Assembly (NCBI GenBank): GCA_021769885.1
Contig: JAETSA010000002.1
Location: 62,001-126,000, forward strand
Origin: Bacillota bacterium
Lineage (GTDB): Bacteria > Bacillota > Clostridia > Oscillospirales > Acutalibacteraceae
DNA: 64,000 nt
Direction: 5' to 3'
The notes below the pieces were generated by a model. That model was not told the DNA's origin, did not search any database, and saw only the letters and a list, made by a program, of their open reading frames with translations. Shown here in pieces: positions 3,174 through 8,526 of this stretch (position 1 is the stretch's first letter; the number at the start of each line of letters is the position of its first letter). The translations under genes and the position numbers were made by a program.

Positions 3174-4658
3174 TCATTTTTGCAAATACACCGTTTGGGT
3201 TGCCGCATTCTCGCAAAACGCCGCATCGTGCTCGGCGAAAAGCAGAGCTGCCTCGGTATCTCTAAATAAATTTTCAAGCTGTATGCGCGACCAGACATCC
3301 ATATAGTTTAAGGGTTCATCCAAAATATACAGGTGCGCAGGGGTGCAAAGGCAGCGCGCAAGCTGTACTTTTTTCTTCTGCCCTGCCGAGCAATTTTCCA
3401 AACGGCACAAAAACTGTTCCCGCGAAAAATCAAGCTTTCGAAGAATCGTATAAAACAGCGTTTCATTTAAGGCGTTTGCTTTTAAGAAATCCTGTAATGT
3501 ACCGTGAAGTCCCTGTGTACCCTGCGGCAGGCAGGATACAACTAAATCTTTAGCGACATACAAATTGCCGCTGTACGAAAGTTCTTCGCCGCAAAGCAAT
3601 TTGAAAATGCTCGTTTTGCCTGCGCCGTTCTCCCCGTACAGATGGATTTTGTCGCCTTGACAGATTGAAAAGCTAACAGGCGCAAAAATCGGATTGCCGT
3701 CATAGCAAACCTGCAAATCACGCAGTTCCGCAAGCATATGGGATTTAAACGGCAAAGGGGTCAATTTTAAAGCTTCCGCAGTTTCTATATTTTTCAACAG
3801 TGCTTCCTTTTCCGAAATCGCCGTTTCACGCCGCTGTGCAATGGATTTTGCCCTCTGCATCATCTTGGCAGACTTATGCCCGATAAAGCCCCTGTCGGGT
3901 CTGAGTCCCGAATTTCTTGTTCCGTTTTTGCTTGCCTCCGCCTGCCGAGACCAGCCTGCGGTGCGTGCCGCCGCCGTTTGCAGACGGGTGATTTCTTTTT
4001 TGAGTTTCTCATTCTCCGCCGCCTCAAACGCATCGCGCTGTGCCTTGTTTTCCTGCCAAAGAGAAAAACTGCCCTTTTGAATTGCAATATCGGTTTTATT
4101 CACGGACAGTGTGTGGTCGGTACAGGCGTCCAACAGCGCACGGTCGTGCGACACCAAAATAAAGCCCTTTTTTCGTGCCAGATATTTGCCTAAGGTTTCA
4201 CGGGCGGCGCGGTCAAGATGATTGGTCGGTTCATCCAAAAGATAAAAACAGTTTTCCCGGGAAAACAAAATCGCGGTCTGCACCTTGGTCTGTTCGCCGC
4301 CCGAAAGGGTGTTATAAGGGCGGTATATCGCATCTTCCGACACGCCCAATGCGGACAGTTCCTTTCGAAAACGCCACATATTTTCGTCCCCCAGCCGTTC
4401 TGATACAATATCGCAAACCCATTCGGATTCGTTTTCCACAGGAAACGGATAATACACAAACGGCATAGTACAGCGAATCGTGCCGCTGTACTCATATTCG
4501 CCCAAAAGCAATTTCAGAAATGTGGTTTTTCCGCGCCCGTTGCGGCCTGTAAAGCCGAGCCGCCAGTCTGTATCCAAACGAAAGCTGACGTGTTCAAAAA
4601 TCGGTTCTGTGCCGCCGTCGTAAGAAAAAGATAAATCGTTGATTTCGAGTGTAGACAT
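3174..4658 (-). CDS. Lsa-type ABC-F ribosome-protection ATPase
   Basis: Soluble twin-ATPase protein of the ABC-F antibiotic-resistance group, which binds the ribosomal E site and displaces lincosamides, pleuromutilins or streptogramin A. The first cassette has GRNGRGKTT, LSGGEQTKV and LLDEPTNHLD. A charged interdomain linker (about residues 190-290) contains the ARD. The second cassette has GENGAGKTS, CSAGQKKKVQLARCL and ILDEPLNYMD. The DEPLNYxD form, the short linker and the 494-residue length fit Lsa/CplR rather than EttA/Uup. There are no membrane segments, as expected. The gene stands alone behind its own consensus promoter and a structured leader with a short reading frame, the usual arrangement for drug-inducible ABC-F genes. 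Drug range cannot be read from sequence. Confidence 0.88.
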   Translation of the reverse strand: MSTLEINDLSFSYDGGTEPIFEHVSFRLDTDWRLGFTGRNGRGKTTFLKLLLGEYEYSGTIRCTMPFVYYPFPVENESEWVCDIVSERLGDENMWRFRKELSALGVSEDAIYRPYNTLSGGEQTKVQTAILFSRENCFYLLDEPTNHLDRAARETLGKYLARKKGFILVSHDRALLDACTDHTLSVNKTDIAIQKGSFSLWQENKAQRDAFEAAENEKLKKEITRLQTAAARTAGWSRQAEASKNGTRNSGLRPDRGFIGHKSAKMMQRAKSIAQRRETAISEKEALLKNIETAEALKLTPLPFKSHMLAELRDLQVCYDGNPIFAPVSFSICQGDKIHLYGENGAGKTSIFKLLCGEELSYSGNLYVAKDLVVSCLPQGTQGLHGTLQDFLKANALNETLFYTILRKLDFSREQFLCRLENCSAGQKKKVQLARCLCTPAHLYILDEPLNYMDVWSRIQLENLFRDTEAALLFAEHDAAFCENAATQTVYLQK

Positions 4659-4670
4659 AAAAAGATTCCT

Positions 4671-4763
4671 CCGTAAAATGTGCGTTTCATTTTCTAAGCG
4701 TTAATAAAAATTTTTAAAAGCCGCAGGAAAAATCCTGCGGCTTTAAAGCGCACATTTTCACGG
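4671..4763 (-). promoter_or_regulatory. Leader terminator and Shine-Dalgarno-blocking stem of the ABC-F gene
   Basis: Bases 4717-4728 and 4733-4744 pair as a 12-bp stem with a 4-base loop. On the minus strand a T-rich tract follows, giving an intrinsic terminator before the gene. Bases 4749-4763 can pair with 4671-4684 (14 bp with one bulge), enclosing that hairpin and covering the first two bases of the GGAGG site at 4672-4668. Together they would stop both transcription and translation in the uninduced state. Confidence 0.75.
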
Positions 4764-4795
4764 AAAAATCCCCTGAAAAGGTACGAAAAGACGCG

Positions 4796-4853
4796 GTTTT
4801 GTTCCTGCGAAGCGCGCAACAAAACAGACGGCTTGTGCCGACGGCTCTGTTTT
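4796..4853 (-). promoter_or_regulatory. Two mutually exclusive leader hairpins
   Basis: Hairpin A pairs 4821-4828 with 4846-4853 (AAAACAGA/TCTGTTTT), with an inner CGGC/GCCG stem. Hairpin B pairs 4796-4803 with 4818-4825 (GTTTTGTT/AACAAAAC). Both use bases 4821-4825, so only one can form at a time. They lie between the leader peptide and the terminator, where an attenuator switch is expected. Confidence 0.6.
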
Positions 4854-4864
4854 ACGCCGAAAAT

Positions 4865-4885
4865 TTAGCAGGAAGCTATACGCAT
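4865..4885 (-). CDS. Leader peptide MRIASC upstream of the ABC-F gene
   Basis: A six-codon frame, ATG CGT ATA GCT TCC TGC then TAA. CGGAG lies about nine bases before the ATG and the frame begins about 30 bases after the -10 element. Short leader peptides whose translation stalls on drug-bound ribosomes are the known induction device of ABC-F and Erm genes. An overlapping frame from the ATG at 4893 (MKRCV) has worse spacing. No homology can be claimed for so short a peptide; the call rests on position, ribosome site and downstream attenuator. Confidence 0.6.
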   Translation of the reverse strand: MRIASC

Positions 4886-4917
4886 CTTTTCATCTCCGTT
4901 CACTTTTTACTGTATGT

Positions 4918-4946
4918 ATTGTAACGGAAGTTACCCGTTTTGTCAA
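4918..4946 (-). promoter_or_regulatory. Consensus sigma-A promoter for the ABC-F gene
   Basis: TTGACA (4946-4941), 17 bases, TACAAT (4923-4918) on the minus strand. It is one of the best promoters in the window. It sits immediately after the GH2 gene stop codon and gives a leader of about 250 bases. Confidence 0.9.
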
Positions 4947-4950
4947 GGCT

Positions 4951-7014
4951 TCAATACCGCCAAGTCACGGTATCCGTCACGCTGTTTCCTACGGCGGAAA
5001 CCGTATTTTCTCCTCGGCGCAACGGCACATTGCGGAACACAAAAACGTGTTTTTGGCGATTGGCGGCCGCTTTTTTCGTTTTAAAAGGTTTGCCGTTGAC
5101 CGTAAGCGAAACCGTATCCGCATTAGAGTAGACCTTAACCGTAATTTTCTGTTTTTCACGCTTTTGGAATCGGCGCGAGGTAATATAAGTCACGGGTTCG
5201 TGCGCCCAATAGGCTTTGTAAAGATAAAACGCATCTTTTTTCGTTTTGCGGTCGTAGGTGACAAGTCCCTTATTATTTCTGCCGGGCATTTCGCCTTCGT
5301 TGCGGATATCCACAGCGAAATCAAATAAATTCCATACGAAAGTGCCCCAAATTTTGTTGCGGCGCGGGGACATAAAATACCGAAGCGCGTGCTCGTGGAC
5401 GATGGAAGCCCATTCTTCGGGATGAAACGCGCACGTGGTGTCCTTCGGCTGTTTCGGATGCTCGGTATGGTGCAGAATATTTGCGCCTGCGCCGTATTCG
5501 GAAACCGCAACGCCCTTTCCGCCGTTGCCGCGCATATGGTAATTCGACTGATAGCGGAAATGCGACGGCTTGCCGATGTACCAGCCGGGGTAAATGTTAC
5601 AGCCCTTTACATCGGACTGCCAACGGTAGCCGTAGGTATGATTGAGTGCCATTGCGGAATACCGTTTGGAATCCAAGCTGTGAATCAAATCGTTTAATTC
5701 CGCCATCATATGCGCGGCGGTGTCCCCGTATTCCCTCATCACCTCGTTGGACATACTCCAGCAGAAAATCGACGGACGGAAGCCTTGCTGACGAATCAGC
5801 TCTGTCATTTGCAGTTTGGCATTTTCGAGCTGACGCGCAGTCACATTGGGGTCGATTGCCGTGTCGGTCGGCAAGGGGGACTTTTTCTCGCCGCCGATAT
5901 GGTCCACAAACGGAATTTCAGCCCAAACGAGCAGCCCGTATCGGTCACAAAGCTCATAAAAATGCGGATGGTGCGGATAATGCGCCAAGCGCACGGCGTT
6001 TGCACCGATTTCATAAAGAATCGAAAAATCCTCTTCGTGTTCCTTCAGCGTTATGGCATTGCCCATATTTTCTCTGTCCTGATGGCGGTTTACACCGCGC
6101 AACGGGTAGGACTTGCCGTTCAAGAAAAATCCTTTTTTCGGGATAATTTCAAAATAACGGATACCGATATATTTTTCGACCGTATCGAGTATTTTGCCGC
6201 CGTCCGAAAGCGTGCAAATCACCTGATAGCGGAATGGATCGGCTCTGCCGTTCCACAAATGCGGATTCGGGATTTCAAGCGTCACACACATATCTGTATG
6301 TGTGACCGCTTCGGTGACTTCTGCGGCAACCGTCTCTTCTTCGGAGAACATATTCGCTGTATCAAAATCCGTATGCGCAATCCCTGCGCACGGCTCGAAG
6401 CAATTCGGAACCTGTACGCGCACGTGCAGTCGGCAGTTTTCTATAGGTGCATCGATTTTTACACGGACACAAAGCGCTGCGAACTCGCGCACCTCGCTGT
6501 TATTCTGATAGCTTATCTGCACACCGTCCGAGCCGAAATCGGACAACGAAAAATGCGTCCTTTCCACGGTGCACAAATTCACCTCACGGTAGATCCCGCC
6601 GAAAAAGGTGAAATCCGCTTCCAGCGGAATCACATCGGGAAACGGCGAATTGTCGGCTTTGACAAGAATCGTATTTTCGCCGTTTTTGAGTGCATCGGTA
6701 GCATCGAATCGGAACAGCGTGTAGCCGCCGCGGTGCTGACCTAAGTGTGTGCCGTTAACATACACATCGGCAACTGAATTTACGCCCAAAAATTCCAAAT
6801 AATAGACTTTACTGTCCTCTTTTTCCAAATGCAGGGTACGGCGATACCACCCCGCGCCGCGATAGTAGTCGTTGCCGCCGTCCTGCCCATCTAAAGCATT
6901 CCAAGTATGCGGCACGGTAATTTCCTGCCAATCGGTGCGTGCCAAAGCCTCGGATAAGGTTTGCGCGCCGAGATAAAAATCCCAGTTCCCTGTAAGCGCT
7001 GTGCGCCGTGCCAT
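4951..7014 (-). CDS. Glycoside hydrolase family 2 (beta-galactosidase/beta-glucuronidase type)
   Basis: 687 residues with the GH2 order: sugar-binding jelly roll (about 1-150), Ig-like domain (about 165-285), TIM barrel (about 290-600) and a C-terminal DUF4982-like beta domain (about 600-687). The acid/base glutamate is E424 in WSMSNEV and the nucleophile is E506 in VSEYGAGA. RGVNRHQD near 306-313 and RLAHYPHHP near 342-350 are typical of the beta-galactosidase branch. There is no signal peptide, so it should act in the cytoplasm on an imported glycoside. It starts 12 bases after the nitrilase gene and shares its transcript. Beta-galactosidase is most likely, but beta-glucuronidase or another GH2 specificity is possible. 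Confidence 0.9.
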   Translation of the reverse strand: MARRTALTGNWDFYLGAQTLSEALARTDWQEITVPHTWNALDGQDGGNDYYRGAGWYRRTLHLEKEDSKVYYLEFLGVNSVADVYVNGTHLGQHRGGYTLFRFDATDALKNGENTILVKADNSPFPDVIPLEADFTFFGGIYREVNLCTVERTHFSLSDFGSDGVQISYQNNSEVREFAALCVRVKIDAPIENCRLHVRVQVPNCFEPCAGIAHTDFDTANMFSEEETVAAEVTEAVTHTDMCVTLEIPNPHLWNGRADPFRYQVICTLSDGGKILDTVEKYIGIRYFEIIPKKGFFLNGKSYPLRGVNRHQDRENMGNAITLKEHEEDFSILYEIGANAVRLAHYPHHPHFYELCDRYGLLVWAEIPFVDHIGGEKKSPLPTDTAIDPNVTARQLENAKLQMTELIRQQGFRPSIFCWSMSNEVMREYGDTAAHMMAELNDLIHSLDSKRYSAMALNHTYGYRWQSDVKGCNIYPGWYIGKPSHFRYQSNYHMRGNGGKGVAVSEYGAGANILHHTEHPKQPKDTTCAFHPEEWASIVHEHALRYFMSPRRNKIWGTFVWNLFDFAVDIRNEGEMPGRNNKGLVTYDRKTKKDAFYLYKAYWAHEPVTYITSRRFQKREKQKITVKVYSNADTVSLTVNGKPFKTKKAAANRQKHVFVFRNVPLRRGENTVSAVGNSVTDTVTWRY

Positions 7015-7985: not shown

Positions 7986-8526
7986 GTGCGGGCGCAACGC
8001 GCAAGCGCCCCTACGACTTGTAGGGAACGACCTCTGTGTCGTTCCGCATGGAGAGTAATTTTTTTGCGGGTTGTCGAGGACGCCGACCCCTACAGGGTTT
8101 GCGTATCGCCGTTTGGTTTGTGCGAAAGCCGACCGTGCTCAGGCGGGCGTGGAAACCCGCCCCTACGGGATTGCACTTTCCCATTGGGTTTGTTCGAAAA
8201 TCCAACCGTGCTCGGGCACAACGCGCAAGCGCCTCTACAACTTGTAGGGAACGACCTCTGTGTCGTTCCGCATGGAGAGTAATTTTTTTGCGGGTCGCCG
8301 AGTCGGCAACCCCTACGGGATTTGCGTATCGCCGTTTGGTTCGTGCGAAAGCCGACCGTGCTCGGGCGGGCGTGGAAACCCGCCCCTACGGGATTGCACT
8401 TTCCCATTGGGTTTGTTCGAAAATCCAACCGTGCTCGGGCGGGGCTTGGAAGGTCTCTCCTGCCGGCTCGGTTGCGCTTCTGCATACTTCCGTATGCAGA
8501 GGTCTCCACCGGAGACCCGCCCCTAC
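7986..8526. repeat. Modular hairpin array A
   Basis: A 540-base non-coding array between two minus-strand genes. It holds about nine GC-rich imperfect palindromes, for example 8364-8390 (arms GGGCGGG and CCCGCCC, then CTACG), 8243-8270 (GGAACGAC/GTCGTTCC after TGTA) and 8292-8318 (GGGTCGCC-type arm, then CTACG). Linkers such as CGTTTGGTT...GCCGACCGTGCTC separate them. Bases 7990-8213 and 8214-8440 are tandem copies with a period of 224. The last module (8438-8526) carries an extra nested segment. Open frames across the array are by-products of GC bias. Confidence 0.85.

Follow-up and report, generated by a model that had tools for sequence, protein, structure and literature searches.

How does the leader RNA in front of an Lsa-like ABC-F gene control that gene, and is the short peptide that it encodes conserved for the sake of the peptide or of the RNA? 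These questions are raised by a 64,000-nucleotide stretch of a Bacillota genome of the family Acutalibacteraceae (assembly GCA_021769885.1, contig JAETSA010000002.1, positions 62,001 to 126,000; hereafter the window), in which a gene for an ABC-F ribosome-protection protein of the antibiotic-resistance (ARE) type is preceded by a leader with a six-codon open reading frame (ORF). The best explanation, which we consider very probable, is that this leader is a ribosome-mediated attenuator.

In the absence of drug, ribosomes would complete the short ORF and depart, and nearly the whole leader ORF would then pair with a downstream switching strand, A, and its tail. With A held by the leader, the sequence, the predicted fold and covariation suggest that the terminator forms, and RNA polymerase would stop. 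A drug acting at the peptidyl-transferase site, presumably a pleuromutilin, lincosamide or streptogramin A judging by the Lsa-like product, would hold the ribosome on the first codons, masking the leader strand, L, and leaving A free. According to the computed folds, A would capture the emerging 3' arm of the terminator and transcription would read through. In the window species, the antiterminator is computed also to open a long stem that buries the ribosome site of the gene, which would constitute a second, translational lock.

All elements of the switch lie on the minus strand (Table 1), which a sequence-only reading of this DNA had left unnamed. That reading had proposed a promoter, a leader of six codons (MRIASC) served by a ribosome site of its own and a 12-bp terminator hairpin, and all three were found; the hairpin has 12 pairs (4744-4733/4728-4717) if the transcript stops there and 11 in the longer fold. 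It missed the antiterminator and the switching strand at 4808-4802, which has both 4874-4868 and the 3' arm of the terminator as partners. In the minimum free energy (MFE) fold UUCCUGC (4874-4868) pairs with GCAGGAA (4808-4802), flanked by a helix of 4893-4881 with 4795-4783. The same GCAGGAA is complementary to the terminator 3' arm as well; A can thus select either the leader, in which case the terminator forms, or the terminator, with read-through as the result. The MFE of the 271-nt leader RNA is -106.4 kcal/mol, compared with -65.8 +/- 4.4 for shuffled sequences (z -9.2; none of 200 as stable), and the antiterminator is the longest inverted repeat among those listed for the region (23 nt, 78%). 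The two mutually exclusive hairpins sharing 4821-4825 that had been described earlier can both be drawn (4853-4846/4828-4821 and 4825-4818/4803-4796), but they are not a conserved switch: the second requires AACAAAAC adjoining strand A, which is present in 2 of 63 aligned leaders, those of the window and of locus L009.

Table 1. Features of the ABC-F locus and its leader, in window coordinates.
Feature	Position	Strand	Basis or remark
Lsa-like ABC-F ribosome-protection protein, 494 aa	3174..4658	minus	NCBIfam NF000355, PDB sequence match
Promoter TTGACA-17-TACAAT	4918..4946	minus	11/12 consensus letters
Leader ribosome-binding site GGAG	4894..4897	minus	8 nt upstream of leader ORF
Leader ORF MRIASC + stop, ATG CGT ATA GCT TCC TGC TAA	4865..4885	minus	sequence; relatives
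Leader strand L, UUCCUGC, end of codon 4 to codon 6	4868..4874	minus	MFE fold, covariation; partner is the switching strand
Switching strand A, GCAGGAA	4802..4808	minus	partners: L (anti-antiterminator) or terminator 3' arm (antiterminator)
3' strand extending the anti-antiterminator, paired with 4893-4881 (leader spacer and start region)	4783..4795	minus	MFE fold; pairing of codons 2-3 with A tail in relatives
Apical hairpin of anti-antiterminator, 4853-4846/4828-4821	4821..4853	minus	fold
Alternative hairpin, 4825-4818/4803-4796	4796..4825	minus	drawable from sequence; L009 fold with ribosome at codon 6; 3' arm in 2/63 rows
Antiterminator, 4809-4787 with 4744-4722, both terminator arms engaged	4722..4809	minus	inverted repeat, forced fold, pairing probabilities
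Intrinsic terminator hairpin, imperfect U tract	4717..4744	minus	folds, inverted repeat; covariation of terminator arms (T5:T3)
Ribosome-site-sequestering stem around terminator, 4773-4749/4684-4661	4661..4773	minus	folds, shuffles

Comparison of leaders among relatives, proposed earlier as a check for compensatory changes, showed that both the leader ORF and the core pairings are conserved and that such changes occur. The upstream regions of 108 loci were examined (80 relatives of the gene less two fragments, 29 further loci and the window's own; three offered less than 70 nt of sequence there). A peptide of six or seven residues of the form M-x-x-x-[S/T/A]-[C/R] was present in 64 of the 108, the composition at positions 5 and 6 being given by construction since the search pattern fixed the residue classes there. 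Among the other regions, some carry ORFs reading MK, MR, MRR, MRI or MII and two carry MLSFFCK; in distant relatives (34-37% identity) no hexapeptide was found and short ORFs are doubtful at most. Sixty-three of the 64 leaders were aligned (L111 was left out; 60 are distinct), starting with ATG (57), GTG (4) or TTG (2) and comprising six codons in 48 cases and seven in 15. They are likewise preceded by similar purine-rich sites, and the named carriers range from Oscillospiraceae-labelled genomes to Desulfosporosinus (L013) and Erysipelothrix (L040).

Pairing in the 60 distinct rows exceeded that in column shuffles for all three helices: 481 of 540 cells for L:A (shuffle mean 452), 569 of 660 for A with the terminator 3' arm (A:T3; 523) and 396 of 420 for the two terminator arms (T5:T3; 363), values attained in 0 of 1000 shuffles for any of them. 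The shuffle is blind to relatedness and 0/1000 is therefore not a probability; double changes are the stronger point, and where Arg replaces Cys at codon 6 (UGC to CGC), the A strand carries the matching change in four of four cases. In nine rows (MRKTTC, MRNTTC) the A strand was shifted by 3 bases to its GC start for a misplaced gap, a choice that favours pairing. In 38 of 58 rows, codons 2-3 were paired with the A tail, whereas 500 shuffles averaged 20.9 such rows and never exceeded 30; together with the L:A helix, almost the entire leader ORF would thus form one strand of the anti-antiterminator. Because the apical hairpin fails to align, RNAalifold recovered just the 5-pair L:A core from a 50-row alignment, and pairs were counted by script instead. 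A test for exact reverse-complement hexamers (36 of 64 versus 4.4 expected) was replaced because it misses wobble pairs.

A covariance model, R1, was built from 50 of the 63 rows (127 positions); it holds only 5 pairs and its E-values are rough. Its matches outside the 64-row set retained the A motif in 57 of 60 cases (49 distinct), with codon 6 base 1 and codon 5 base 3 paired in 49 of 49 each (null 44.5 and 42.0); these matches lean toward pairing, as the model that found them holds these very pairs, and A positions 1, 2 and 5 are fixed by construction through placement by the motif GC..G. Of the three rows lacking the motif, L166 and L204 pair well by eye and L177 poorly.

The predicted behaviour of the switch was followed by folding with the leader either free or covered by a ribosome (assumed footprint, 15 bases before and 18 from the first base of the P-site codon). 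When the RNA ends at the last base of the terminator 3'-arm core, the window transcript is predicted to form the terminator without a ribosome (1.00) and the antiterminator with a ribosome at codon 3 or 4 (1.00). Over the 63 rows the mean antiterminator probability was 0.01 in the free RNA and 0.79, 0.70 and 0.47 with a ribosome at codons 3, 4 and 6. With 4 more bases transcribed past the core, the antiterminator was more probable than the terminator in 28, 22 and 12 of 63 rows, respectively, and with 8 more bases in 16, 12 and 4 rows. The expected contrast between free and occupied leader was thus observed in truncated transcripts, whereas at full length the terminator wins in the window and in most rows; full-length equilibrium folds with a ribosome were abandoned as a demonstration, as most rows showed no switch in them.

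Several results weigh against an attenuator of this type. The hexapeptide pattern is missing from 44 of the 108 upstream regions, and among five same-genus genomes R1 had no match in four and one only at E 0.014. Position 11 of A:T3 is paired less often than expected by chance (21 of 60 versus 26.1), position 9 of L:A is weak and the helix ends are unsupported. The U tract of the terminator is interrupted (UUUUAAAAAUUUUU), and a terminator scan flagged nothing on the minus strand of the region. A ribosome at codon 6 yields an antiterminator of only 0.17 in the truncated window transcript, and at 4 bases past the core the window's antiterminator is down to 0.03. With the full terminator transcribed and a ribosome stalled, the equilibrium fold is the terminator (1.00 in the window; means over 63 rows of 0.79 and 0.89 with the ribosome at codons 4 and 6), and the full-length window RNA loses 14 kcal/mol of stability when the antiterminator is forced on it. 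Since the terminator wins at equilibrium once fully transcribed, the switch must be kinetic, decided by timing.

An imperfect U tract would also suit an explanation in which attenuation is mainly translational, the stem over the ribosome site doing the work and the hairpin being a minor terminator. The gene's own ribosome site, GGAGG at 4672-4668, lies in an outer stem that had been read as 14 bp (4671-4684/4749-4763); the stem is present and reaches the site, but it is longer, with 24 pairs and one bulged base (4755), and covers GGAGG entirely. In the window this site is fully paired unless the antiterminator is imposed (unpaired, 0.00 in the free RNA and 0.50 with the antiterminator), whereas over the 63 rows the unpaired probability averages 0.23 in the free RNA, 0.22 when a ribosome is present and 0.37 under an imposed antiterminator; all these figures are model energies and matches, not measurements. 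In the C. difficile cplR leader the translational block suffices with the poly-U mutated, according to the available text of Obana 2023 (PMC10201436). Pairing of the last 32 bases ahead of the gene with the sequence that precedes the terminator was counted as beyond chance when the helix length was matched by at most 10 of 200 shuffles. Such stems occur in 11 of 63 rows (about 3 expected), 7 of which cover a ribosome-site motif, and the longest, of 19 (window), 17 (L012) and 16 (L015, Oscillibacter valericigenes) unbroken pairs, are unrelated in sequence. An earlier notion that the stem is confined to the window species and L009 was contradicted both by these rows and by L009 itself, whose stem (10 pairs) is not beyond chance. 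The putative lock is thus a recurring extra outside the conserved core; a minority of relatives have it, apparently through more than one origin. A mainly translational mechanism is accordingly improbable in our judgement: terminator and antiterminator are the conserved, covarying parts, and in 52 of the 63 rows the ribosome-site stem is not beyond chance.

Slightly less probable still is sequence-specific stalling, in which drug-bound ribosomes would recognise the conserved small residue at position 5 and the Cys at position 6 of the nascent peptide. Leaders of the ErmC and MsrD type work by sequence-specific peptide stalling. Of the 86 loci found with the model, the window and training rows among them, all but one have an ORF of 6 or 7 codons; these 85 have Ser (77), Phe (4), Cys (1), Ile (1), Ala (1) or Leu (1) as residue 5 and Cys (78) or Arg (7) as residue 6. 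The prevalence of Ser would agree with peptide recognition, as would nine Thr and two Ala rows that break the RNA pair at codon 5 base 1 and keep a small residue; the Thr rows, however, are all of one sequence type, as are the Ala rows. Seven of the 85 have Phe, Leu, Ile or Cys as residue 5, and the exchange between Cys and Arg at position 6 is accompanied in step by its pairing letter. In L228 and L243 the ORF stops at codon 3 or 4 and TCCTGC or TCTTGC is kept at an unchanged distance from the ATG, while in L233, L240, L242, L244, L246 and L175 the ORF comprises two or three codons and TTCTTGC follows its stop, displaced downstream by one base. Because these shortened ORFs retain the pairing letters, the end of the peptide would be dispensable there, which favours a ribosome held on the first codons; a small-residue rule for position 5 was dropped in view of the same ORFs and of the Phe, Leu, Ile and Cys residues.

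Covariation and shortened ORFs together support the view that the conserved Ser-Cys of the leader peptide reflects mainly RNA pairing, more than peptide recognition. The earlier proposal that stalling on MRIASC frees the RNA from the terminator is supported by the conserved leader ORF and core pairings, but the predicted folds and the shortened ORFs point to a stall over the first codons and not on the MRIASC peptide as such. The available text of Obana 2023 (PMC10201436) points both ways: little context-specificity of pleuromutilin, lincosamide and streptogramin A (PLSA) drugs is expected on so short upstream ORFs (uORFs), yet conserved ABC-F uORF sequences are considered possibly to reflect unknown sequence-specific stalling, and the identity of the MIN uORF matters in vmlR, which favours peptide stalling and counts against a purely RNA-level account.

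Sensing of charged tRNA-Cys through the conserved Cys codon, in the manner of cysS attenuators, for which uORFs with Cys codons are published (as far as the available source text goes), is very unlikely. UGC does stand at codon 6 in most relatives, but Arg replaces Cys in 7 of the 85 ORFs, some ORFs stop ahead of codon 6, and a ribosome-protection factor lies downstream in 112 of 120 loci. Finally, an ordinary intergenic region with the terminator of the upstream glycosidase gene and chance complementarity is hardly credible: that gene does end at 4951, only 5 bases ahead of the promoter, but the fold (z -9.2), the conserved leader with three covarying helices and the matches through the phylum speak against it.

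Searched with R1 at E <= 1e-5, 398 genomes of the same family yielded 51 places and 295 of the same order yielded 45, 91 of them distinct, including the window and many training rows. Of these, 86 were read as loci, the other 5 lying just upstream of ABC-F places already found. In 80 of the 86, the same strand encodes an ABC-F N-terminus no more than 360 bases downstream from the match start; the remainder comprise three ABC-F remnants (L143, L145, L174), a single ABC exporter (L159) and two loci at contig ends (L176, L196). At E <= 1e-4, matches occurred in 25 of 398 phylum-search and 26 of 291 class-search genomes, samples that overlap. These gave 45 new places; among the 34 that were read, 32 stand before an ABC-F N-terminus and two (L223, L226) before N-terminal remnants, as judged by eye. 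In total, 112 of 120 loci, window and training rows included, lie ahead of an ABC-F N-terminus, with 5 remnants, 2 contig ends and 1 ABC exporter.

Plasmids carry the leader as well. The lsa(E) gene of an Enterococcus faecium plasmid (L216, CP006623.1) is preceded by a leader reading MYNFSC (R1, 70.2 bits) with matching L, A and terminator-arm letters; the stretch between terminator and gene is longer than in the window. A Monoglobus plasmid ABC-F gene (L218) has the leader MRNFSC (81.5 bits), and a Paenibacillus plasmid Lsa gene (L217:1276-1400) scores 19.1 bits, with a possible start-stop ATG-TGA at the leader position, behind which the pairing letters persist. Among 72,556 plasmid records, 102 cover 80% or more of the 386-base leader region of lsa(E). 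On enterococcal plasmids lsa(E) is annotated as a lincosamide/streptogramin resistance gene; it is predicted to be inducible through such a leader, and resistance could then escape notice in uninduced testing.

Further loci bear on mobility. In the group L111/L131, L130, L149, L150, L176 and L196, an Lsa-type region with the leader MINFSCK is about 99% identical, in aligned stretches, across four genera in three families, and the leader alone (98% over 128 bases) stands at a contig end (L176) in a fifth genus; near-identity across genera points to recent transfer of the Lsa-type gene with its attenuator. In L143:1223-1414, L223 and L226 the ABC-F gene is cut off soon after its N-terminus and the attenuator is intact; in L143 an adjoining long ORF resembles, by eye, a serine recombinase. 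On the minus strand of L159 (1339-1630), an R1-type attenuator (MIYVSC, with matching A strand and terminator) precedes an MsbA-type ABC exporter, the family matches of which fall below curated cut-offs; by its sequence, this leader appears to be a captured attenuator. Ribosome-mediated transcription attenuation of an ABC exporter is described for bmrCD of B. subtilis in the available text of PMC4191407.

As to the gene itself, the window protein passes the cut-off of the NCBIfam ribosomal-protection ABC-F family NF000355 (414 bits versus 380), and its top PDB sequence match is Lsa(A) 7nhk. It remains below the curated cut-off of the Lsa family NF000167 (648.6 bits versus 750) and is not formally Lsa. 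The nearest named relative of the gene, at 84% identity, is L009, from a metagenome-assembled genome labelled Ruminococcaceae UBA7212. L009 has an insert between terminator and ribosome site that contains GTCATTCTGAGCGACGCGAAGAATCTC, which we take to be of a dispersed repeat type; the window holds no copy of this pattern within 3 mismatches. Elsewhere in the window (7989-8440), an imperfect tandem repeat lies between two long ORFs, with a spacing of 223-224 bases and copies of 158 and 90 nt that are 90-94% identical.

How does this leader relate to known systems? It shares with the ABC-F uORF attenuators a short uORF, recognised from sequence, with a ribosome site upstream of an ARE-type ABC-F gene, as well as mutually exclusive anti-antiterminator, antiterminator and terminator, predicted from folds and covariation. 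As far as the available text of Takada 2022 (PMC9226507) describes it, the vmlR leader of Bacillus subtilis likewise combines transcription and translation attenuation, with a short uORF inside the anti-antiterminator, a mutually exclusive antiterminator, an intrinsic terminator, an extra ribosome-site hairpin and a PLSA-resistance ABC-F gene downstream. Unlike the window leader, in which the ORF itself, usually of 6-7 codons, pairs, vmlR has the tripeptide uORF MIN in a bulge of SL-1. The cplR leader of Clostridioides difficile also unites a uORF, a terminator and ribosome-site sequestration, transcriptional and translational attenuation acting jointly, but its uORF reads MR[I/M] and the ribosome site is sequestered by the terminator stem itself and not, as in the window, by an outer stem; Enterococcus faecalis lsaA, of the same protein family, has the uORF consensus MAGN and not M-x-x-x-S-C (both from the available text of Obana 2023, PMC10201436).

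MRIASC and M-x-x-x-S-C match none of the ABC-F uORF consensuses MIN, MR[I/M], MK[L/Q] and MAGN given in those texts; the short variants MK, MR, MRN and MKL of the window-type RNA resemble some of them. Rfam 15 gave no family at gathering score (best sub-threshold match rli61, 22.8 bits versus 50), and the literature searched, mostly by titles and summaries and with supplements outside its scope, yielded no description of this leader, the lsa(E) leader included. The family is distinct in its consensus and in the use of the ORF as a pairing strand. The nested double lock, which the sequence-only reading had called uncommon, has precedents in vmlR and cplR, both reported with transcription and translation attenuation in the texts available, and as dual attenuation is already published for these two, the window leader represents a new family of a known kind.

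Pairing with the switching strand thus accounts more simply for much of the leader conservation and makes the question of sequence-specific stalling directly testable. We give a broader interpretation an even chance of holding. If it is true, leader-peptide conservation in this sensor class would largely be an illusion created by RNA pairing: a ribosome parked on the first two or three codons would suffice, and the ORF would act as the strand of the anti-antiterminator, its stop moving (codon 3, 4, 7 or 8) while the RNA zipper is kept. The leaders would then form an undescribed, phylum-wide RNA family that travels with mobile genes, including lsa(E), and may be captured by another gene, as by the ABC exporter.

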